Below are positions 29,105 to 40,803 of a DNA stretch of 64,000 nt, in pieces. A program made the translations under genes and the position numbers. The stretch lies in the NCBI GenBank assembly GCA_021815305.1, contig JAKAHC010000007.1, forward strand, positions 62,001 to 126,000. Reading direction: 5' to 3'. Source of the stretch: Deltaproteobacteria bacterium. Lineage in GTDB: Bacteria; Desulfobacterota; Deferrimicrobia; Deferrimicrobiales; Deferrimicrobiaceae. The notes beneath the pieces were generated by a model. The model was not told where the DNA came from and ran no database searches. It saw only the letters and a list, made by a program, of their open reading frames with translations. Position 1 is the first letter of the stretch, and each line of letters starts with the position of its first letter.

Positions 29105-29286
29105 GGGGTCCGGCGTTCTCCGTGAATCCCTGAGCCCGGCCCTTCCGGTTCCGGGTTCGCGGGAAATCGTGATCGGCGGCGGGGCGGCGCTTCCCGTTCC
29201 GGGTCACGGATCTTCCGGAGCTTCCCCCTGGGCTCCGTGCGGTTTCGTTGCGCCTTTCTCCGGATGCTCCCTCACATGGAGGCCGC

Positions 29287-31077
29287 ATGAACTCCGGTGA
29301 CGCCAGGGACGTGCTCGCCATCCTCGCCGGCCCCGGCCCGGAGGTGTTCACCACCCGCCCCGTCATCATGGGCACCCACGGGATGGTCACTTCCGGGCAT
29401 TACCTCGCCAGCAGGATCGGGCTGCACATCCTCGAGGAAGGGGGGAACGCCGTGGATGCCGGGGTGGCGATGGGTTTCGCCCTGGCCGTGCTGGAACCGT
29501 ACATCTACGGCATCGGCGGCGAAGTGCCCATCCTTGTCTACCTCTCGGACGAGAGACGGGTCGTGAGCCTCTCCGGACAGGGGCCGGCCCCGCAGAGGGC
29601 GACCCTCGAGTGGTTCGGAAAGAACGGGATCGACGCCATTCCCGGGGACGGTTTGCTGGCCGCCGTCGTCCCCGACGCCGTCTCGACCTGGATCTGTGCG
29701 CTGTCCCGCTTCGGGAGCATGACCCTCTCCCAGGTCCTTGCCCCCTCCGTGGAACTCGCGGGGCGGGGGTTCCCCATGTTCGAGAGGCTCCGGTCCGCGC
29801 TCCAGAGGAGTTTCCCGCAGTTCCTGGAGGTGTGGCCCTCCTCGGCGCACGCCTATCTCCCCGGCGGGCGGATTCCGGATGTGGGCGAGATCTACGCGCA
29901 GCGGGACCTTGCGGGGATGTTTTCCCGGCTCATGGACGCGGAATGCCGGGAGAGGCGGTGGGGGCGCCGGGAGGCGCTCCAGGCGGCGCACGACGCCTTC
30001 TATAAGGGGGAAATCGCGGAACGGATCGTGAAATTCTCGCAGGAGAGCCGACTCCCCGACTCGACGGGGAAAAGAAACCACGGGCTGATCTCGATGGAAG
30101 ACCTGCAACGCTACGCGAGCCGGGTCGAGGAACCCGTGACGGCGAACTATCGGGGGTACGATGTCTTCAAGTGCGGCCCCTGGTCCCAGGGGCCGGTCTT
30201 TCTCCAGCAGATCAACCTCCTGGAAGGGTACGACCTGGCGGCGATGGGGCACAACTCCCCGGAGTACATCCACCTTCTGATCGAGGTCGCAAAGCTTGCG
30301 TTCGCGGACCGGGAGACCTATTACGGCGACCCGGAATTTTCCGAGGTTCCCCTGGGCGCCCTGCTTTCCAAGGGGTACGCCGCGATGCGCCGGAAGCTCG
30401 TCGACCCGGACCGCGCCTCCATGGAACTTCGCCCCGGCAACGCGCGGGCGTATCGGCCGGAAGAGAAAAAGGGCGGATCGGAAATCCACAAGGGAGATAC
30501 CACGCATCTGGACGCCGCGGACCGGTGGGGGAACATGCTGTCCGCGACGCCCTCCGGCGGCTGGTTCCGCAGCTCCCCCGTCATCGAAGGGCTGGGCTTT
30601 CCCCTCGGAACCCGCCTGCAGATGTTTTCCCTGGATCCCGGCCATCCCAATTCCCTCCGGCCGGGGAAGCGCCCCCGCACGACTCTCACCCCTTCCCTGG
30701 CGCTGAAGGACGGCAGGCCGTGCATGGCGTTCGGCACCCCGGGCGCGGACCAGCAAGACCAGTGGTCGCTCCAGTTCTTCCTGAACTGCGTGGATTTCGG
30801 AATGAACCTGCAGGCCGCGGTCGACGCCCCGACGTTCCACACGGGCCACTTCCCGTCTTCCTTCCACCCGCACGGCGCGGAGCCCGGGACGCTCCACCTG
30901 GAGGGACGCATCCCCGAAACCACGATCGCCGCCCTCCGGGACAAGGGCCACACGGTACGGGTGGGGGGGGATTGGAGCCATGGCCGGGTTCTCGGCATCC
31001 GGTTCCATGCCGACAGCGGCGCGATCTTCGGCGCGGCGACGGCGCGGATGGAGACCGGCTACGCTATAGGCTGGTAA
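29287..31077 (+). CDS. Gamma-glutamyltransferase-family Ntn hydrolase
   Basis: 596 residues. The precursor should cleave itself before the catalytic Thr in GDTTHLDAADRWGNMLSATP, leaving a large and a small subunit. The substrate-end blocks GKRPRTTLTPSLALKDG and AFGTPGADQQDQWSLQFFLN are present. There is no signal peptide, so it is cytoplasmic, unlike periplasmic GGT. The family also includes HpxW-type oxamate amidohydrolases and cephalosporin acylases, so the substrate is open; its position before a probable oxalate operon makes oxamate one candidate. The start ATG 29287 follows GGAGG; longer frames lack a ribosome-binding site. Confidence 0.82.
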   Translation: MNSGDARDVLAILAGPGPEVFTTRPVIMGTHGMVTSGHYLASRIGLHILEEGGNAVDAGVAMGFALAVLEPYIYGIGGEVPILVYLSDERRVVSLSGQGPAPQRATLEWFGKNGIDAIPGDGLLAAVVPDAVSTWICALSRFGSMTLSQVLAPSVELAGRGFPMFERLRSALQRSFPQFLEVWPSSAHAYLPGGRIPDVGEIYAQRDLAGMFSRLMDAECRERRWGRREALQAAHDAFYKGEIAERIVKFSQESRLPDSTGKRNHGLISMEDLQRYASRVEEPVTANYRGYDVFKCGPWSQGPVFLQQINLLEGYDLAAMGHNSPEYIHLLIEVAKLAFADRETYYGDPEFSEVPLGALLSKGYAAMRRKLVDPDRASMELRPGNARAYRPEEKKGGSEIHKGDTTHLDAADRWGNMLSATPSGGWFRSSPVIEGLGFPLGTRLQMFSLDPGHPNSLRPGKRPRTTLTPSLALKDGRPCMAFGTPGADQQDQWSLQFFLNCVDFGMNLQAAVDAPTFHTGHFPSSFHPHGAEPGTLHLEGRIPETTIAALRDKGHTVRVGGDWSHGRVLGIRFHADSGAIFGAATARMETGYAIGW

Positions 31078-31108: not shown

Positions 31109-31137
31109 TTGACAGTGCCGCCCCCGTCCACTATTAT
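31109..31137 (+). promoter_or_regulatory. Strong sigma70 promoter of the Cdc48/2-oxoacid oxidoreductase operon
   Basis: TTGACA (31109-31114), a 17-base spacer and TATTAT (31132-31137) make a near-perfect housekeeping promoter. The start would be near 31144, inside the first of two operator-like dyads, so it looks built to be strong and repressible. The leader before the AAA gene is about 67 bases. Confidence 0.75.
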
Positions 31138-31148
31138 TGGTCCGACAA
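31138..31148. promoter_or_regulatory. Putative GntR operator 1 (TGGTCCGACAA)
   Basis: Contains the dyad GTC-C-GAC and overlaps the -10 box and predicted transcript start. FadR-type GntR regulators commonly bind TGGTCnGACCA-like sites. An FCD-GntR gene is the second gene of this operon. Binding here would block RNA polymerase. Confidence 0.55.
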
Positions 31149-31168
31149 TCAGCCCGTATACAGTATTC

Positions 31169-31177
31169 GGTCAGACC
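31169..31177. promoter_or_regulatory. Putative GntR operator 2 (GGTC-A-GACC)
   Basis: Perfect 9-base dyad flanked to give CGGTCAGACCA. Its centre is 30 bases, about three helical turns, downstream of the centre of operator 1. The same face of the helix would allow cooperative binding of two dimers. Confidence 0.6.
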
Positions 31178-31210
31178 ACCCATCTGACATCAGATACAGC
31201 GGTGAGCCAA

Positions 31211-33379
31211 ATGAAGACACCGGTCACACGAACAGAAGAGCTCTCGCTTCGGGTCGCCAAAGCCTTCATCGAGGATGAAGGCAAGGGGTTGGCCCGCGTG
31301 GATGCCGATCAGCTGCAGTCCCTGGGGGCGGTGCCCGGAGATTGCCTGCTGATCACCGGCCGCCGGTCCACGGTGGCCCGCGCCGGCCATCTCACCCAGC
31401 ATTACGAGGGCCAGGGGCTGCTGCAGATCGACAGCATCACCCGGGACAACGCCCAGGTCTCCCTGGACGAGATCTGCACCCTCCAGAAGGTCCCATACAA
31501 GCTGGCCGACAACATCATCCTCTCTCCCGTGGACGCGCGGAGCCAGGCCCCCAGGGAACAGGAAATCCCCCACATCCTCCAGCTGCTGTCCGGACTCCAC
31601 GTGGTCATCGGCGACCGCGTCCAGGTCGTCATGTTCGGCACCCGGCCGCAGTTCTTCATGGTCGAGGGGGCAAGCCCGAGGGGAGCCCTGCGGATCACCG
31701 CCCACACGGCCCTCACCTTCCGGAGCGCCGATTTCGCCCACGAGAAGGCCGTCAGGACCTCCTACGAAGACATCGGCGGCCTGGAACAGGAGCTGAGCCA
31801 CGTCCGGGAGATGATCGAGCTTCCCCTGAAATTCCCCGATCTGTTCACCGAGCTCGGGATCGATCCGCCCAAGGGAGTCCTTCTCTCCGGCCCGCCGGGA
31901 ACGGGGAAGACCCTCATCGCGCGCGCCATATCCAACGAGGTCCGGGCCCATTTCATCCACGTCAACGGCCCCGAGCTCATCCACAAGTTCTACGGGGAGA
32001 GCGAAGCCAAGCTGCGGCAGGTCTTCGACGAGGCCCGGAAGAACTCTCCCAGCATCATCTTCTTCGACGAGATGGACGCCCTCGCCCCGAAAAGGGCCAA
32101 TGTCGTCGGAGACGTGGAAAAGCGCGTCGTGGCGCAGCTCCTGGCGCTGATGGACGGTCTCGTCTCCCGGGGGGAGGTCGTGATCATCGGCGCGACGAAC
32201 ATGCCGGAACTGGTCGATCCGGCACTGCGCCGCCCGGGGCGTTTCGACCGCGAAATCACCATCGGCGTGCCGAAGCGGGCGGACCGCCTGCAGATCCTGA
32301 AGATCCATTCCCGCAAGATGCCGCTCGCGGGAGATGTCGACCTGGAGCATCTGGCGGAGATCACCCACGGGTATGTCGGCGCGGACATCTCCGCCCTCTG
32401 CACCGAGGCGGGCATGGCGGCGCTGCGGCGCATCCTGCCAAAGGTCAAGTTCGAGGTGGATGCCAAGCCCGCACTGGAAAACGGGGCGAAGATCCGGGTC
32501 ACCGCCGACGATTTCGTGTCCGCCTTCAAGGGGGTCGAGCCCACCTCGACGCGGGAGTTCATGAGCGAGCGGCCGAACATCTCCTTCAAGGACGTCGGGG
32601 GGCTGCGCAGGATCAAGGAGAACCTCCTCTCCATGATGCGGCTCCCCCTGCAGGGCTTCCCCCTCTTCGCCAATTCCCGCCTGAGCCCCCCCAGAGGCGT
32701 TCTCTTCTCCGGTCCGTCCGGAACGGGGAAAACCCTGATGGCCAAGGCGCTCGCGGGGGAGATGGGGATGACCCTTTTCCTCGTCGACCCTCCCACCCTC
32801 CTCTCGAAGTGGGTCGGAGAGTCGGAAAAGGGCCTGAGGGAAGTCTTCAAACGGGCGAAGCAGGCCTCTCCGTGCATCCTGTTCTTCGACGAGATCGAGG
32901 CCATGGCGCCGGCGCGGACCGCGGAAGATTCCGGCCAGGTCTCCCAGCGGATCGTCAGCCAGCTGTTCCGGGAGCTCGACGGGCTGCAGAGTTCGCTGGG
33001 GATCGCGGTCGTCGCCGCAACCAACCGGATCGACCTGATGGAGCCGGCGTTGCTTCGCGCGGGCCGCTTCGACTCCATCGTCGAATTCCCCCTCCCCGAC
33101 AGGGAGGAGAGGGCCGAGATCCTTCGGATGTACCTGGAATCGCTGCCGTTCCGATCCGGGGTCGACATCGAACGCTTTGCCGCCATGAGCGAAGGATGGA
33201 CCGGGGCCGAGCTCGAGGCCCTATGCAAAAAGGCGGTCGTTCTGGTTCTGGAAGAGCGCGTCGGCAGGGGGGAGAAGCCCGATTTCTCGCTCCTCACGAT
33301 CACGACCGGGCATTTCGAGCAGGCGATCGAGAAGAACGGCGCCTCTTCGGCGATCCGGCCTCGCGAAATGAAACACTGA
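31211..33379 (+). CDS. Cdc48/VAT-like double AAA+ ATPase
   Basis: 722-residue unfoldase of the Cdc48/p97 type. The N-terminal about 170 residues resemble the Cdc48 N-domain (LARVDADQLQSLGAVPGDCLLITG, then IDSITRDNAQVSLDE). D1 follows with Walker A GPPGTGKT (about 227-234), Walker B IIFFDEMDA and RRPGRFDRE. D2 has Walker A GPSGTGKT (about 501-508), Walker B ILFFDEIEA and RAGRFD. Both ATP sites look competent. It is the first gene of the operon with a GntR regulator and a 2-oxoacid oxidoreductase; its client is unknown. The start is ATG 31211, with GGTGAG in front; GTG 31202 is possible, and the codon at 31109 is in the promoter. Confidence 0.9.
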   Translation: MKTPVTRTEELSLRVAKAFIEDEGKGLARVDADQLQSLGAVPGDCLLITGRRSTVARAGHLTQHYEGQGLLQIDSITRDNAQVSLDEICTLQKVPYKLADNIILSPVDARSQAPREQEIPHILQLLSGLHVVIGDRVQVVMFGTRPQFFMVEGASPRGALRITAHTALTFRSADFAHEKAVRTSYEDIGGLEQELSHVREMIELPLKFPDLFTELGIDPPKGVLLSGPPGTGKTLIARAISNEVRAHFIHVNGPELIHKFYGESEAKLRQVFDEARKNSPSIIFFDEMDALAPKRANVVGDVEKRVVAQLLALMDGLVSRGEVVIIGATNMPELVDPALRRPGRFDREITIGVPKRADRLQILKIHSRKMPLAGDVDLEHLAEITHGYVGADISALCTEAGMAALRRILPKVKFEVDAKPALENGAKIRVTADDFVSAFKGVEPTSTREFMSERPNISFKDVGGLRRIKENLLSMMRLPLQGFPLFANSRLSPPRGVLFSGPSGTGKTLMAKALAGEMGMTLFLVDPPTLLSKWVGESEKGLREVFKRAKQASPCILFFDEIEAMAPARTAEDSGQVSQRIVSQLFRELDGLQSSLGIAVVAATNRIDLMEPALLRAGRFDSIVEFPLPDREERAEILRMYLESLPFRSGVDIERFAAMSEGWTGAELEALCKKAVVLVLEERVGRGEKPDFSLLTITTGHFEQAIEKNGASSAIRPREMKH

Positions 33380-33405
33380 CCCGTTTCCCGCCCGGAGGAG
33401 CCAGA

Positions 33406-34164
33406 GTGAAGCAGCATTCGAAATTGTTCAAGCCGATCAAGAAAACCAAGGTATACGAGGAAATCGTCGCCAAGATCAAGGACATGATCGAGAAGGGCCG
33501 GTTCAAGTCGGGAGACCAGCTTCCCGTGGAAAGGGAACTGGCCGAGGTCTTCCGCGTGAGCCGCTCCTCCGTCCGGGAAGCCCTCCGTTCCCTGGAGAGC
33601 CAGGGACTGCTCGAGAGCCGGCAGGGGAACGGAACGTACATCGCCAGCCAGCCCGTCGAGTCCCTGGTCAACCCCCTGGCCTCCGTCATCTTCACCGAGA
33701 AGGACGATCAGATGGAGCTTTTCGAAATGCGCCGGATGATCGAGCCGCAGCTTGCCTACCTTGCGGCGGAACGGGCCACCGAGGAAGAGATCTCCATGCT
33801 GGAGAAGGCCCTGGCCCTTCAGGAAGAGGAGATCGGCAGAGGGGAATCCGGAACGGACGTGGACAAGAATTTCCATTACATCATGGCGAGGGCGACGAAG
33901 AACAAGGCCCTCCTGCGCATCACCGACAACATCATGGACCTCCTCGCGGAGAGCCGCGAACAGTATCTCCAGGTGGAAGGCAGACCCCAGAAATCCATAT
34001 TGCGGCACAGGGAAGTGCTCGACGCGATCCGGGCCGGGGACCGGGACCGGGCGGAGGAAGTCATGCGCGAGCACCTGATGGATATCGAGGCCAGTCTTTT
34101 CGGGGGAACCGAGAGACGGAGGCCAAAGGGGGGAATCGACAACAGTCTCAAGGAAAGGAGGTGA
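33406..34164 (+). CDS. FadR-subfamily GntR regulator with FCD ligand domain
   Basis: 252-residue repressor-type protein. The winged helix-turn-helix is at about 18-80 (DQLPVERELAEVFRVSRSSV, then GLLESRQGNGTYI). The C-terminal all-helical FCD domain shows the metal-site residues (Asp and His in DKNFHYIMA, His in RHREVLDA and MREHLMDIE) that bind a metal plus a carboxylic-acid ligand in relatives. The start GTG follows GGAGGAG by 5 bases. It lies between the AAA gene and the oxidoreductase genes, and the operon promoter carries two GGTCnGAC dyads, so it probably autoregulates the operon in response to its organic-acid substrate. Confidence 0.9.
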   Translation: MKQHSKLFKPIKKTKVYEEIVAKIKDMIEKGRFKSGDQLPVERELAEVFRVSRSSVREALRSLESQGLLESRQGNGTYIASQPVESLVNPLASVIFTEKDDQMELFEMRRMIEPQLAYLAAERATEEEISMLEKALALQEEEIGRGESGTDVDKNFHYIMARATKNKALLRITDNIMDLLAESREQYLQVEGRPQKSILRHREVLDAIRAGDRDRAEEVMREHLMDIEASLFGGTERRRPKGGIDNSLKERR

Positions 34165-34228
34165 ACCGGTATTCGCCGGTAAGTTCGTACCATTCCGTAT
34201 CGTAGACAAAAGAAGGAGGAAGGACAAA

Positions 34229-34843
34229 ATGGCAGATGTATTTGAAGTAACGATCTGGGCCCGCGGTGTGACCCAGGACATGGAAGGAAGGCACCTGTCG
34301 CTTGTCATCGCAAACGCCGCGGCAAAAGGCGGCAAGTTCACGCAGGCGTGGGACAACTACGCGGATCTTCCGGACCGCGTCCAGGTTCCGCTTCGCAAGT
34401 ATGCGCGCATCAGCGACGAAGAGATCGAAATGCGCTACCTGTACGAGAACAACAACCCCGAGCTCGTCTTCGTCATGGACGACACGATCATCAAGGGGAT
34501 CGACATCCTCCGCGGGATGAAGAAGGGCGGAGCGCTGGTCGTCAACACCAAACGCTCCGCGGAGGAACTTCTCGCGCTGATCCCCAACAAGGATCTGCTG
34601 AAGTCCTTCGTCACCGTGGACGCCACCGGGATCATCGGCGGCAGCGGCCTGGACAGCGTCGACTTCATGGGATCGGAAGGCGGCACGGAAGCCGTCTCCG
34701 TGGCCGTCGGCCTGGCGGCGCCGCTGGTCGGCGCGGCGACCAAGGTTTGCGACAAGTTCTCCCTGGAAAACGTCGTTGCGTCCGCCGGGAACAAGGCGGG
34801 AGTGAAAGAAGGGGCCAAGACCGCTGTAGTGAAATCCTTATAA
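34229..34843 (+). CDS. 2-oxoacid (probably oxalate) oxidoreductase, gamma subunit
   Basis: 204-residue subunit of the PorC/KorC gamma type. The middle and end fit (IKGIDILRGMKKGGALVVNT, VTVDATGIIGGS). The glycine-rich GRGGQG motif found near the N-terminus of pyruvate- and 2-oxoglutarate-type gamma chains is replaced by ARGVTQDMEG. An enzyme that does not use coenzyme A, such as oxalate oxidoreductase, would fit that loss. The start ATG follows AGAAGGAGGAAGGAC. With the next gene (115 residues) it totals 319 residues, close to the fused gamma-delta chain I recall for Moorella oxalate oxidoreductase. First of the four catalytic genes. Confidence 0.85.
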   Translation: MADVFEVTIWARGVTQDMEGRHLSLVIANAAAKGGKFTQAWDNYADLPDRVQVPLRKYARISDEEIEMRYLYENNNPELVFVMDDTIIKGIDILRGMKKGGALVVNTKRSAEELLALIPNKDLLKSFVTVDATGIIGGSGLDSVDFMGSEGGTEAVSVAVGLAAPLVGAATKVCDKFSLENVVASAGNKAGVKEGAKTAVVKSL

Positions 34844-34864
34844 GGCACGGAAGGAGAAGAAAAA

Positions 34865-35212
34865 ATGAGTCCAATGTACTGCGAGAAGTTCCGGATTCCC
34901 AAGCACCTCGAAATCGCCGACGGCGCCGTGGTTCCGGCCCCCGTGGGCGAGCAGCCGATGATGAAGACCGGGAACTGGCGTACAGAGCGCCCGGTCATCG
35001 ATCACGAGAAGTGCACGACCTGCCTGAACTGCTTCGCCTATTGCCCGGACTCCTCCTGGCACTTCGATGAAAAGTCCGAAAAGATGGTCTGGAACCCGAT
35101 CTACTGCAAAGGTTGCAGGGTCTGCGTCGAGGTGTGCCCGGTGGGTGCGCTCCAGCTCGAGAACGAACTGAATTTCAAAGGCGGCGTCGCCCGTCTTGAC
35201 AAGCCTTACTAG
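34865..35212 (+). CDS. 2-oxoacid (probably oxalate) oxidoreductase, delta subunit (2 x 4Fe-4S)
   Basis: 115-residue ferredoxin-like chain that carries electrons from the thiamine site to external ferredoxin. Two full cluster motifs are present: CTTCLNCFAYCP and CKGCRVCVEVCPVG. About 45 residues precede the first motif, as in PorD-type chains. It starts 21 bases after the gamma gene with AGGAGAAG in front, and is followed after 20 bases by the alpha gene. Standard partner in the four-gene arrangement. Confidence 0.92.
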   Translation: MSPMYCEKFRIPKHLEIADGAVVPAPVGEQPMMKTGNWRTERPVIDHEKCTTCLNCFAYCPDSSWHFDEKSEKMVWNPIYCKGCRVCVEVCPVGALQLENELNFKGGVARLDKPY

Positions 35213-35232
35213 ATTCCAAGGAGGAGAATCAC

Positions 35233-36426
35233 ATGCCGAGAGAAACTGTCATGGCGGGTTGTTCCGCCGCTGCGAATGGCGCCAAACTGGCAAGAGTCGA
35301 GGTCATCAGCTCGTACCCGATCCGCCCGTACACCGGCATCATGATGGAGCTTTCCAGGATGGTGGCGGAAGGGGAGCTCGACGCGGAATTCGTCCACGGT
35401 GAAGGCGAGCATGCCCAGGTCTCCATCGCCCAGGGCGCGTCCGCGTCCGGCGCAAGGGCCTACACGGGAAGCTCGGGAGTCGGCGTCGCCTACGCGATGG
35501 AAGTCTACTCCCCCATCTCGGGCGGCCGTTACCCGGTCCAGATGACCATCGCCGACCGGGCCTACGATCCCCCCGGCGACTTCGGTTCCGAGCACACGGA
35601 CGTCATGAGCTGCTCCGACCAGGGGTGGATCCTGGGCTGGGCCGAGACGCCGCAGGAAATCCTCGACAACACCATCATGTACTACCGGATCGGCGAGGAC
35701 CCGAAGGTCATGCTGCCCCAGTGGGCGGTGCAGGACGGCTACTTCGTCTCCCACATCCCCGGCAAGGTCAGCATCCCGGACCAGGCGGCGGTCGACGAAT
35801 ACCTTCCGCCGTACCACTGCCCGCACGCCCTGAATCCGCAGAATCCGACGAACCACGGTCCCCAGATCTTCCCGGACCAGGGCCCGGCGATCGACCTGCA
35901 GAGGGCGCAGGCGTTCCTGAACACCCCGAAAGTGATCGAGAAGGCCGTTGCCGACTACAACAAGCAGTTCGGCCGCAACTACCCGGCGTTCCTCGAGGAG
36001 TACAAGACCGACGGCGCCGACTACGTCTTCTTCCTCCAGGGAGCGCATTGCCGCACGGCCCGGTTCGCGGTGGACCACCTCCGGAAACAGGGGGCCAAAG
36101 TCGGCATGGTGAAGCTGCGCTTCGTCCGTCCCTGGCCGACCGAGAAGGTGCTCGAAGTCCTTTCCAAGTTCAAGGCCGTCGGTGTCGTCGAGTCCAGCAC
36201 TTCTTACGGCGCCGCCATGAAGGGCGGGAAGCTCCAGCACGAAGTCCGCGCCTCCCTGTACGATTCGCCGAAGCAGCCCGCCGTCACGTCGTTCATGGCG
36301 GGCCTTGGCGGCGAGGTCATCACCCTCGACGAGTTCTACAACATGGCGAAGATCCTCGACACGGCCGCGAAGAAGGGCAAGGTCGACCAGTACGTCTACT
36401 GGGTCGGCTTCGACAACGGCATCTAG
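35233..36426 (+). CDS. 2-oxoacid oxidoreductase alpha subunit with oxalate-type active site
   Basis: 397 residues. It supplies domain I of the thiamine-diphosphate site, including the catalytic Glu59 in HGEGEHAQ. Where pyruvate enzymes have YPITP with a substrate-binding Thr, this protein has SYPIRPYTG with Arg31. Arg109 and Asp112 fall in ADRAYDPPGDFG. As I recall, Arg31, Arg109 and the swap-loop Asp112 are the residues that hold oxalate in the Moorella thermoacetica oxalate oxidoreductase, and the numbering matches exactly. The predicted reaction is oxalate to two CO2 with two low-potential electrons to ferredoxin, without coenzyme A. An oxidoreductase for another short dicarboxylic or 2-oxo acid is the alternative. 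Confidence 0.85.
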   Translation: MPRETVMAGCSAAANGAKLARVEVISSYPIRPYTGIMMELSRMVAEGELDAEFVHGEGEHAQVSIAQGASASGARAYTGSSGVGVAYAMEVYSPISGGRYPVQMTIADRAYDPPGDFGSEHTDVMSCSDQGWILGWAETPQEILDNTIMYYRIGEDPKVMLPQWAVQDGYFVSHIPGKVSIPDQAAVDEYLPPYHCPHALNPQNPTNHGPQIFPDQGPAIDLQRAQAFLNTPKVIEKAVADYNKQFGRNYPAFLEEYKTDGADYVFFLQGAHCRTARFAVDHLRKQGAKVGMVKLRFVRPWPTEKVLEVLSKFKAVGVVESSTSYGAAMKGGKLQHEVRASLYDSPKQPAVTSFMAGLGGEVITLDEFYNMAKILDTAAKKGKVDQYVYWVGFDNGI

Positions 36427-36458
36427 TAAATAAACGCTGATAAGCATAAAAGGAGTGA

Positions 36459-37442
<984 letters not shown>

Positions 37443-37547: not shown

Positions 37548-37700
37548 CGTGCCCGACATCGACGAGTACCGGCCTGATCGGGCGGCGGAGGAACGGGACC
37601 TCATGGGGAAAGGCCGGATAACTTCTATTGAGGAAAGGAGGGGGCAGTCGGAGGTGATGTTGAAGTAGCCGCAAAAATTTCCTTTTGGGAGGCCTTGCTC

Positions 37701-38693
37701 ATGCGAAAGGGATTTTCCGGGCTGAAGGTTGCTGCAATCGTGGTCTGCTCCTTGGCGCTGGTGTTCTCTTCAATCGGCACGGCGAAAGCCTGGGTGCCGG
37801 ACAGGCCGGTGGAGTTCGTCATCCCGGCGGGTACCGGCGGCGGCGCGGACGTCATGGCCAGGTTCATCTCCCCTCTCGTCACCAAGTACAAACTTTCTCC
37901 GAAACCGTGGATCGTCATCAACAAGTCCGCCGGCGCGGGGGCGGAAGGGTTCATGTACGTCAAGGGCCAGAAGGGCAACCCCAACGTCATCATCATCACC
38001 CTCGACAACCTGTTCACCACCCCGCTGGCCACCGGCGTTCCCTTCAACTGGAGGGACCTGACCCCGGTCGCCCGGCTGGCGCTGGACGAGTTCGTTCTCT
38101 GGGTGAACGCCGGCAGTCCCTACAAAACCGCCATGGAATACATCGACGCGGTGAAGAAGGCGCCCGGCAAGTTCGTCATGGGCGGCACCGGCGCGAAGCA
38201 GGAAGACCAGATCATCACGGTCATGCTGGAGCAGACGTTCGGCCTGAAGTTCAACTACGTTCCGTTCAAGGGCGGCGGCGAGGTGGCGGTGGAGCTCGTC
38301 GGCAACCACATCAACTCGTCGGTGAACAACCCGGCCGAGGCGGTCAGCCAGTGGAAAGCCGGCAAGCTGCGCCCGCTGGGGTTGTTCGACCATCAGCGGC
38401 TCGAGCTGCCGGACTGGAAGGGCATCCCCACGATGAAAGAGGCCACCGGCAAGGATCTCGCCTACCTCATGCTACGCGGCATCTTCATGGCCCCCGGCGT
38501 CACGAAGGAGCAAACCGAATATTACGTCCAGACGCTGAAGAAGGTGACGGAAACTCCGGAATGGAAGAAGTACATCAGCGACAACGGGCTGAAGGCCGCC
38601 TTCCTGACCGGCCCGGATTTCGTGAAGTGGCTCGGAGAGAAGGAAACCATGACGAAGGACTTCATGGCGAAAGGCGGTCTGCTGAAGAAGTAG
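37701..38693 (+). CDS. tctC: TctC-type periplasmic solute-binding protein
   Basis: Extracytoplasmic receptor (Bug family) of a tripartite tricarboxylate transporter. It has 330 residues; the signal peptide ends after about residue 28-30 (GTAKA-W). The family's ligand-loop block PVEFVIPAGTGGGADVMAR and the second loop VMGGTGAKQEDQI are present. Such receptors bind carboxylates through main-chain contacts, so the ligand cannot be read directly; the operon suggests oxalate or a similar small diacid. The start is ATG 37701, 8 bases after GGGAGG; the in-frame TTG 6 bases earlier is too close to it. Confidence 0.9.
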   Translation: MRKGFSGLKVAAIVVCSLALVFSSIGTAKAWVPDRPVEFVIPAGTGGGADVMARFISPLVTKYKLSPKPWIVINKSAGAGAEGFMYVKGQKGNPNVIIITLDNLFTTPLATGVPFNWRDLTPVARLALDEFVLWVNAGSPYKTAMEYIDAVKKAPGKFVMGGTGAKQEDQIITVMLEQTFGLKFNYVPFKGGGEVAVELVGNHINSSVNNPAEAVSQWKAGKLRPLGLFDHQRLELPDWKGIPTMKEATGKDLAYLMLRGIFMAPGVTKEQTEYYVQTLKKVTETPEWKKYISDNGLKAAFLTGPDFVKWLGEKETMTKDFMAKGGLLKK

Positions 38694-38709
38694 ACGGAAC
38701 ACCGGCAGG

Positions 38710-38749
38710 AAAGAGAGGAAGCAGGGTCACTCCCCTGCTTCCTCTCTTT
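38710..38749 (+). terminator. Attenuator-type terminator between tctC and tctB
   Basis: A perfect 17-pair stem (AAAGAGAGGAAGCAGGG with its complement) and 6-base loop, ending in TTT. It lies 16 bases after tctC. Its likely effect is partial termination plus protection of the tctC message, giving more binding protein than membrane subunits. Confidence 0.65.
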
Positions 38750-38787
38750 GTGTCCTATTTCGACAACGGATGGGATGGGGAGGAAAG

Positions 38788-39273
38788 ATGCGAAAGGCCA
38801 ATCTTGGGGTGGCCATTTTCCTGTTCTTGATCGGCGCGATCGTCATGTTCGACGCGGTACGCCTCGGATGGCGATGGGATCCGGGGTTCGGCCCCGGGGC
38901 CGGGTATCTGCCGTTTTATCTTGCCCTGGGTATCCTCATCGGCACGTCGGTGATCATCATAAAGCAGGTCAGGCAACTGGTGAAGGAAGGGGCCGGAGAC
39001 AAGCCGCTGATCGAGGAGGGGGGGCTGAAGCCGATCCTCTGGGTGCTTGTCCCGTCCGCGGTCATGGTGGTTCTCGTTTCCGTCGTCGGGTTGCACTTCG
39101 CGGCCTTTCTTTTCCTCCTGTTCTACATGCGGGTGGTGGGGAAGATCGGCTGGCTCGAATGCATCCTGGTTTCGGTCCTGATCCCCGTGGCCATGTACAT
39201 CACCTTCGACAGGTTGTTCCTGATTCCGTTGCCGGACGGAATGATCGGTCCTTACCTTAAGCTTCCATTCTGA
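38788..39273 (+). CDS. tctB: TctB-type small membrane subunit
   Basis: Small four-helix membrane subunit of the tripartite tricarboxylate transporter, 161 residues. The pattern is typical: an N-terminal helix (LGVAIFLFLIGAIVMFDAV), a glycine-rich loop (DPGFGPGAGYLPFYLALG) and three further helices. TctB sequences are poorly conserved, so the call rests on topology and position between tctC and tctA. The start ATG 38788 follows GGGGAGG; the in-frame ATG at 38770 lies upstream of that site and is not used. Confidence 0.85.
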   Translation: MRKANLGVAIFLFLIGAIVMFDAVRLGWRWDPGFGPGAGYLPFYLALGILIGTSVIIIKQVRQLVKEGAGDKPLIEEGGLKPILWVLVPSAVMVVLVSVVGLHFAAFLFLLFYMRVVGKIGWLECILVSVLIPVAMYITFDRLFLIPLPDGMIGPYLKLPF

Positions 39274-39291
39274 TATCGGAGGGAGAGCAAC

Positions 39292-40803
39292 GTGGAGTCA
39301 AATTTCCACAACCTGGTGATGGGCATCAGCGTTTCGATGCAGCCATACCATTTTCTGATGGCAATGGTCGGGCTGGTGCTCGGGGTCATCGTGGGCGTCC
39401 TCCCCGGGCTGGGAGGCGCCAACGGCGTCGCCATCCTCATCCCCCTCACGGTGGCGATGGAACCCATTTCCGGCATCATCCTGCTGGCGAGCATTTACTG
39501 GGGGGCGCTGTACGGGGGAAGCATCACGTCCATCCTGTTCAACATTCCCGGCGAACCGTGGTCCGTCGCGACCACCTTCGACGGCTACCCGTTGGCGAAG
39601 AAGGGCAAAGCCGGGAAGGCCCTGGTGCTTTCGTTCTTCTCGCACTTCGTCGGCGCGGTGCTCGGGGTCATCATGCTCAGCTTCTTCGCTCCGATCATCG
39701 CGGAGTTCGCGCTGAAGTTCGGCCCCGCCGAGATCTTCTCCGTGATGGTGCTCACCTTCAGCGCCTTCGTCGGACTGGGCGGGAAGGATCCGGTGAAGAC
39801 GCTGATCTCCATCTTCTTCGGGTTCATCCTGGCCGCGGTCGGGATGGACATCGTGACCGGGCAGTTGCGGATGACGTTCGGCTCCATCAACCTGATGGGC
39901 GGGTTCAACTTCATCGTGGCGGTCATCGGTCTGTTCGGTCTGGGGGAAATCTTCCTCACCGTCGAGGAAGGCCTCAAGCTCGAATCGACGGCGGGCGGAA
40001 GGGTCACGTTCAAGGATATGGCGTGGGGAATCAAGGAAATAGCCCATGAATGGAAGTCGCTCCTGTTGGGCGCCGTCATCGGGTGCTGGATGGGCCTCAA
40101 GCCCGGCGGCGCGACCCCGGCCTCCTTCATGGCGTACGGTTTCGCGAAACAGGGCCACAAGAAAAGCGCGGAATTCGGGAACGGGGCCTCCGCGGGGATC
40201 ATCGCGCCCGAAGCGGCCGCACACGGCGCGGGAACGTCCGCGGCGCTCCCCATGGTCACCCTGGGAATTCCGGGTTCGCCGACCATGGCGGTCATCATGG
40301 GCGGCCTGATGATCTTCGGCCTGCTGCCCGGGCCGATGCTTTTCAAGGAGCACGCCAATTTCGTCTGGGGCTTCATCGGCAGCTGCTGGATCGGAAATAT
40401 CCTCGGCCTGTTCGTCGTGCTTGCGTTCGCGCCGCTGTTCGCCGCGATCCTCAAGATCCGGTTCGCCATCATCATGCCGATCATCGTGTACGTGTGCGCC
40501 ATCGGCGCGTACGCGGTGAACAACCGGATGATCGACGTGTACTACATGATCATCTTCGGAGTCCTCGGGTACCTCTTCAAGAAACTCGACTATCCTCTCG
40601 CGCCGATGGTCCTGGCCCTGGTGCTGGGAGACATGGCGGAGTCCGCCCTGCGCCAGGCGCTGCTCATTTCCTCGGGGAATCCGATCGTTCTGTTCCGGCC
40701 CCCGATCGCGCTGCCGATCATGATCGTGGCGATTATCATCTTCTTCTGGCCGACCATCTCGGGTATAATCCGTAAAAGACGCACCAGCGTCGGACCTGGC
40801 TAG
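39292..40803 (+). CDS. tctA: TctA-type large membrane subunit
   Basis: Main permease of the tripartite tricarboxylate transporter (DUF112 family), 503 residues with about 12 helices. The family signature GVLPGLGGANGVAILIPLT near the N-terminus and its second copy around PEAAAHGAGTSAALPMVTLGIPG are both present. The start is GTG with GGAGGGA in front, 18 bases after tctB. Uptake is expected to be driven by an ion gradient. As the last gene before a strong hairpin, it closes the operon that begins at 31109. Confidence 0.93.
   Translation: MESNFHNLVMGISVSMQPYHFLMAMVGLVLGVIVGVLPGLGGANGVAILIPLTVAMEPISGIILLASIYWGALYGGSITSILFNIPGEPWSVATTFDGYPLAKKGKAGKALVLSFFSHFVGAVLGVIMLSFFAPIIAEFALKFGPAEIFSVMVLTFSAFVGLGGKDPVKTLISIFFGFILAAVGMDIVTGQLRMTFGSINLMGGFNFIVAVIGLFGLGEIFLTVEEGLKLESTAGGRVTFKDMAWGIKEIAHEWKSLLLGAVIGCWMGLKPGGATPASFMAYGFAKQGHKKSAEFGNGASAGIIAPEAAAHGAGTSAALPMVTLGIPGSPTMAVIMGGLMIFGLLPGPMLFKEHANFVWGFIGSCWIGNILGLFVVLAFAPLFAAILKIRFAIIMPIIVYVCAIGAYAVNNRMIDVYYMIIFGVLGYLFKKLDYPLAPMVLALVLGDMAESALRQALLISSGNPIVLFRPPIALPIMIVAIIIFFWPTISGIIRKRRTSVGPG

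Follow-up and report, generated by a model that had tools for sequence, protein, structure and literature searches.

The 64,000-nucleotide stretch of DNA analysed here (hereafter the window) carries a promoter with several dyads in front of genes for a CDC48-type ATPase, a GntR regulator of the FCD class and an oxalate oxidoreductase (OOR). Which regulators act at this promoter, and on which of the dyads? A preliminary description proposed a pair of phased operators for the GntR protein, which would repress its own operon until a carboxylate releases it. The features discussed are collected in Table 1; G, C and L numbers denote genomes, contigs and loci, and G000 is the window's own genome.

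Table 1. Features of the promoter region and the gene cluster (window positions), and places of the O2 motif in the same genome (contig:position).
Feature	Position	Strand	Remarks
Sigma-70-type promoter	31109..31137	+	TTGACA-17-TATTAT
O1 TGGTCCGACAA, predicted GntR/FCD operator	31138..31148		overlaps predicted start (~31144); conserved in relatives
O2 CCGTATACAGTATTCGG, core 31156-31168	31154..31170		19 bp from O1; belongs to the TTGTATAC-N-GTATACAA motif
O3 GGTCAGACC, perfect dyad, probably an accessory site for GntR	31169..31177		particular to this genome
Leader dyad ATCTGAcaTCAGAT	31182..31195		not conserved
CDC48/p97-type AAA+ ATPase, first gene	31211..33379	+	CDC48_N, two AAA domains
GntR/FCD regulator (FadR type), P0001, predicted repressor at O1 (and O3)	33406..34164	+	domains, HTH residues
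Oxalate oxidoreductase (OOR) gamma and delta parts, alpha, beta	34229..37442	+	NCBIfam profiles, PDB match
Tripartite tricarboxylate transporter tctC, tctB, tctA	37695..40803	+	linkage kept in relatives
O2-motif places, G000	C5:302843, C2:47537, C2:120627, C5:257008, C10:6476		relatives' loci L090-L101, L117-L136

The promoter and the gene cluster behind it

The promoter proposed in the preliminary description was found again when the letters were re-read: TTGACA (31109-31114) and TATTAT (31132-31137) are separated by a 17-nt spacer and score 11 of 12 matches, the sole match in 500 bases (0.1 in shuffles). The TTGACA box is kept at an equal relative position in all five readable family orthologs. 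The two dyads also lie where they had been placed, i.e. GTCCGAC at 31140-31146 (centre 31143), overlapping the predicted transcript start (about 31144), and the perfect dyad GGTCAGACC with its centre at 31173. Their centres are exactly 30 bp apart as claimed, but the 'three turns' are approximate only because 30 bp corresponds to 2.9 turns at 10.5 bp per turn. Of 20,000 single-base shuffles of the 111-nt stretch, 34 contain GGTCnGACC and 6 contain a pair of GTCnGAC. The reported dyads are thus real and rarer than chance. The suggested motif search of the genome gave 40 places for GGTCNGACC in 2.77 Mb (about 1 per 69 kb) versus 24 for the reversed control. The stretch contains two more dyads that are absent from the preliminary description, CCGTATACAGTATTCGG (O2) and ATCTGAcaTCAGAT; the latter has no counterpart in relatives and was dropped.

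The first gene scores 762 bits with the CDC48 model TIGR01243, just below the cut-off of 803. OOR alpha and beta exceed the equivalog cut-offs of NF045791 and NF045792 (596/500 and 604/590 bits), and the delta model NF045790 is split over two genes, its halves scoring 206 and 87 bits where the cut-off of 230 is set for one whole protein. The best PDB match of OOR alpha is the oxalate oxidoreductase 5c4i (388 residues aligned, E 2.8e-154), which we take to be that of Moorella. Unlike the Moorella enzyme, the gamma and delta parts are encoded here by separate genes, and the cluster carries CDC48 and gntR. The tctCBA genes possibly form a separate transcript since they lie 250 bp behind the OOR genes. 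Upstream, a gamma-glutamyltransferase-like gene (29248-31077 of the window, recognised by eye) lies between a Usp gene and CDC48; in G021, G023, G007 and G013, the first recognised gene upstream of CDC48 is that of Usp.

The placing of the FCD-GntR gene second in the operon was borne out, and this linkage is kept in relatives. The regulator was found in 5 of the 23 same-family genomes searched (69-75% identity). CDC48, gntR and OOR follow in the same order in G021, G007, G018, G012 and the separate record UBA6124, while the G023 contig ends after OOR delta. In other families, the order is the same in G233, G254, G240 and G171, gntR comes first in G187, and in G217 it precedes a more distant OOR-like set that lacks CDC48. 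The regulator is linked to neither CDC48 nor OOR in G390 and G381, and in G059 it is alone on a 4.2-kb contig. A CDC48/p97-type ATPase gene is seen tied to gntR and OOR across several families of the phylum (window 31211-37442; L013, L019, L020, L021, L029, L031, L033, L034 and L035). Literature text searches did not find 'oxalate oxidoreductase' together with 'CDC48', nor together with 'GntR' and 'operator'.

The gene-2 regulator contains both expected domains with scores above the cut-offs (PF00392, 84 bits; PF07729, 104 bits). In its FCD domain, D153, H157, H201 and H223 are invariant in 15 aligned regulators (those of G390, G381 and G059 were used in this protein alignment only) and are presumably the metal ligands of an Asp/His3 site. 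Its closest solved relative by sequence is NanR, although the score with the NanR subfamily model NF003011 (155 bits) stays below the cut-off of 260; the scores with the LldR, PdhR and GlcC equivalog models are likewise below theirs (138/311, 136/330 and 82/301 bits). An AlphaFold model (mean pLDDT 78.8, pTM 0.56) adds little: the 50 structure matches listed are FCD/GntR proteins only, with modest TM values of 0.40-0.52. The regulator of the window and its six relatives of at least 66% identity all have R/S/S/G at HTH positions 28/39/40/59, and section 10 of PMC4494728 links R28, S40 and G59 to the G-C preference in TGGT/ACCA.

O1 and O3 in relatives

Section 10 of the same source gives TKGT-N3-ACMA as the operator consensus of the FadR subfamily. 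O1 of the window fits it at 8 of 8 positions and is slightly degraded, with one symmetric base lost compared to relatives. In all five readable same-family CDC48 promoters (G021, G007, G018, G013 and G023), TGGTCNGACCA stands directly 3' of the -10 box; the sixth, G012, has N at the operator position and is unreadable. Outside the family, G217 has CTGGTCTGACCAG in front of gntR, and distant families have a site after the promoter that reads TGGTCTGATC (G233 and G254), TGGTATAACC (G240) or TGGTATGACA (G187). In G233, G254 and G240, an ACCAA box lies some 11 nt away from the centre of O1 and resembles the extra half-sites that PMC4494728 (section 17) places 7-12 nt from FadR-type sites. The 33-bp block of O1 and O2 is 88-97% identical among G021, G007, G018 and G013; in these four relatives, identity is 29-59% in the -35/-10 spacer and 14-77% in the leader 3' of the block. 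Over the same block, the window is 70-73% identical to the four and 52% identical to G023.

O1 is thus shown by comparison to be a conserved site of the predicted FCD-type GntR class on the transcript start. A GntR/FCD operator at this place, as first proposed, agrees with its conservation, with the gene linkage and with the HTH residues expected for TGGT/ACCA.

The pairing with O3 fared differently. O3 fits the consensus at 7 of 8 positions, has no counterpart in the promoters of G021, G007, G018 and G013, and is replaced in G023 by a degenerate TGGTCAGACAA located 24 bp from O1. The combination of O1 and O3 at 30 bp is therefore a property of this genome. As a design, the 'two phased operators' are not supported: the dyad conserved alongside O1 is another one, O2, at 19 bp.

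The preliminary description named conservation of the dyads in genomes lacking the regulator as an observation that would speak against its model. Of the 24 family genomes, six have the regulator, and four of these carry the 15-nt operator TTTGGTCNGACCATC; it also appears in one of the other 18, where no regulator was detected (Fisher p 0.006). The two regulator-bearing genomes without an exact copy are that of the window (a changed base in the dyad and another in its flank) and G012 (N). The exception among the 18, G013, is no refutation, because its contig ends inside CDC48 (residue 715) and neither the regulator nor OOR gamma was found in the assembly. Genome-wide, TTGGTCNGACCAT with 2 mismatches occurs 26 times per strand versus 20-23 for the control, so that only exact sites carry weight; a near-exact site at C6:617878 was dropped as it lies in a stretch without a clear upstream position. 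No common second target emerged from further exact copies of TTGGTCNGACCA in relatives (G018:C30, G013:C200, G007:C188 and G010:C77). At G013:C200:4949 (L076 1501), tandem TTGGTCTGACCAT and GGTCTGACCAT, 16 bp apart, lie at the contig end behind a gene that by eye resembles tartronate semialdehyde reductase.

O2 and its family-wide motif

Seven of the eight pairs of the O2 dyad are formed in the window and in G021, G018 and G013; G007 has fewer. The dyad lies at the same place in G021, G018, G013 and G007, and this fixed place is what counts, because 62 of 2000 shuffles contain some such 17-mer. In the window, GTATACNGTATAC has a single match at up to 2 mismatches, i.e. O2 (0.04 expected). With up to 1 mismatch, TTGTATTCNGTATACA occurs in 20 of 24 family genomes and its reversed control in one (G016); the motif mostly takes the form TTGTATAC-N-GTATACA. 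After strand doubles were merged, 39 distinct places were obtained: four are OOR promoters, 32 were read, and G020:C24, G016:C77 and G018:C8 were left out of the reading.

Of the 32 places, twelve lie at a citrate synthase/metH divergon (one place, L101, shows metH alone before the contig end), three about 720-730 bp before sdhA with room left for sdhC, and two upstream of isocitrate dehydrogenase (idh), one assigned by Pfam and one by the same N-terminal sequence. One place each was found at ATP synthase b, at a histidine kinase and at the small subunit of a NiFe hydrogenase. A further one (G006) precedes, by 41 bp, the gene of an FCD regulator with 83% identity to a protein on contig C2 of the window's genome. 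At least four places (L095, L117, L124 and L131) have no assigned target; L095 was not counted for mdh because mdh lies upstream of its site. G000 itself has 29 places that match TGTATACNGTATACA at up to 3 mismatches, versus 9 for the control. Nine places stay within 2 mismatches, including those at citrate synthase, mdh, aconitase, a nuoEF-like gene, a histidine kinase and the C2 FCD gene. O2 of the window differs from the 13-nt core at 1 position, but from TGTATACNGTATACA at 3. At the OOR operon, O2 is absent in G023 and in more distant families. It lies near +19 here, and the motif covers the -10 box by eye in several other loci.

The aconitase gene of G000 has an exact O1-type TTGGTCTGACCAT upstream (C5:256883; L060 3384), 125 bp from an O2-type site of the TGTATAC type. 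With both motif types, it is a possible second target.

These comparisons show O2 to be a conserved dyad belonging to a second, putatively regulatory motif that is found family-wide at TCA-cycle and energy genes. O2 looks like the site of a regulator other than the gene-2 GntR. A literature search did not find a described regulon with the TTGTATAC-N-GTATACAA motif.

The genome encodes four further FCD proteins. One of them, on contig C2 (G000:C2:~47590), contains PF00392 and PF07729 domains; it is called VanR-like here because of its SRTPIREA recognition helix and its short length. GGTATACTGTATACA at C2:47537 precedes its gene, and a site also precedes the G006 ortholog. The VanR-type FCD regulator Atu1419 binds ATGTATACAT (PMC7797058). 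That type is alike in its palindromes with a GTATAC core; unlike it, the motif here joins two overlapping GTATAC units (TTGTATAC-N-GTATACAA) and serves TCA-cycle genes. From the two autoregulatory places and general family traits, we infer that the C2 VanR-like regulator is the owner of O2.

A two-regulator model and its alternatives

We consider it probable, though far from certain, that the promoter at 31109-31177 is the composite-operator promoter of a CDC48-gntR-OOR operon, with the gene-2 GntR acting on O1 (here also O3) and a second FCD regulator on O2. The GntR dimer would bind O1 and O3, cover the transcript start and block RNA polymerase. It would thereby limit its own synthesis, and the second place of its gene in the operon may keep its level low. 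A carboxylate in the FCD metal pocket would release it from the operator; given the enzyme, oxalate is the natural guess. The weakening of the right half of O1 may be offset by O3, which would have been gained recently and in this lineage alone. The C2 VanR-like regulator would bind O2 and tie the operon to central carbon metabolism. Since the site of its own repressor adjoins one common to citric-acid-cycle genes, the operon probably senses both substrate and central metabolism.

The gene-2 GntR could instead cover O1, O2 and O3 alone as cooperating dimers, with O2 as its accessory box. NanR, its closest solved relative, places three dimers on (GGTATA)3 (PMC8012715), and the extra half-sites near FadR-type sites (PMC4494728, section 17), like the ACCAA box in G233, G254 and G240, fit such an arrangement. 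Escherichia coli NanR is also alike in having several sites close together, but it uses direct GGTATA repeats as the operator and an N-terminal extension for cooperativity (PMC8012715), whereas the sites here are palindromes. The O2 motif stands before TCA-cycle genes family-wide and also in front of another FCD gene. We regard the single-regulator reading as unlikely, because O2 is widespread without O1, even in genomes without a detected gntR ortholog.

Could O1 and O3 belong mainly to another FCD regulator of the genome? Only the protein at C11:136719 has similar recognition residues (R/T/S/G). Two TTGGTnnGACCA sites lie 169 bp apart upstream of its gene (G000:C11:136221 and 136390; L062 2722 and ~2890), which is near a LutA/GlcF-like gene with cysteine-rich CCG domains. 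A regulator of the lactate or glycolate type is thus conceivable, and the similar residues together with these sites make cross-binding between the gene-2 and C11 proteins possible. Its upstream sites TTGGTTAGACCAC and TTGGTATGACCAG carry T or A where O1 sites carry C, and the operator co-occurs with the gene-2 regulator, which is linked to it; C11 as the main owner of O1 and O3 therefore appears quite improbable. Even less credible is that the dyads form an RNA leader structure (attenuator or riboswitch) instead of protein sites. O2, O3 and the 31182-31195 dyad all lie within the transcribed leader, but O1 spans the start of transcription, no Rfam match was found up to E 1, the fold is unremarkable (z -1.0), and no terminator-like site was found. 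The leader RNA was rejected on the Rfam and folding results.

The two-regulator model can be narrowed to named protein types: a FadR-type repressor on the transcript start and, 19 bp downstream, a VanR-type master regulator of TCA-cycle and energy genes would converge on one promoter. For this narrower form, we see the case as evenly balanced. The TTGTATAC-N-GTATACAA regulon would then comprise citrate synthase, aconitase, idh, sdh, mdh, nuo, ATP synthase and hydrogenase. The gene-2 side resembles the PdhR, LldR and GlcC type as described in PMC4494728, i.e. in its TKGT-N3-ACMA palindrome, an autoregulated gene in the operon, R28/S40/G59 and carboxylate metabolism downstream. Unlike that type, the target here is a CDC48-oxalate oxidoreductase cluster, and the site is paired with the motif of another regulon.

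In brief, the FCD operator is of a known kind, and what appears new is that two FCD-type motifs meet at an OOR operon. From the comparison come a specific model with two inputs for operons of this sort and, in a lineage represented here mainly by assemblies, a putative TCA-cycle regulon whose candidate regulator can be named. If the model is true, oxalate oxidation with its CDC48 partner would join an undescribed central-metabolism regulon.
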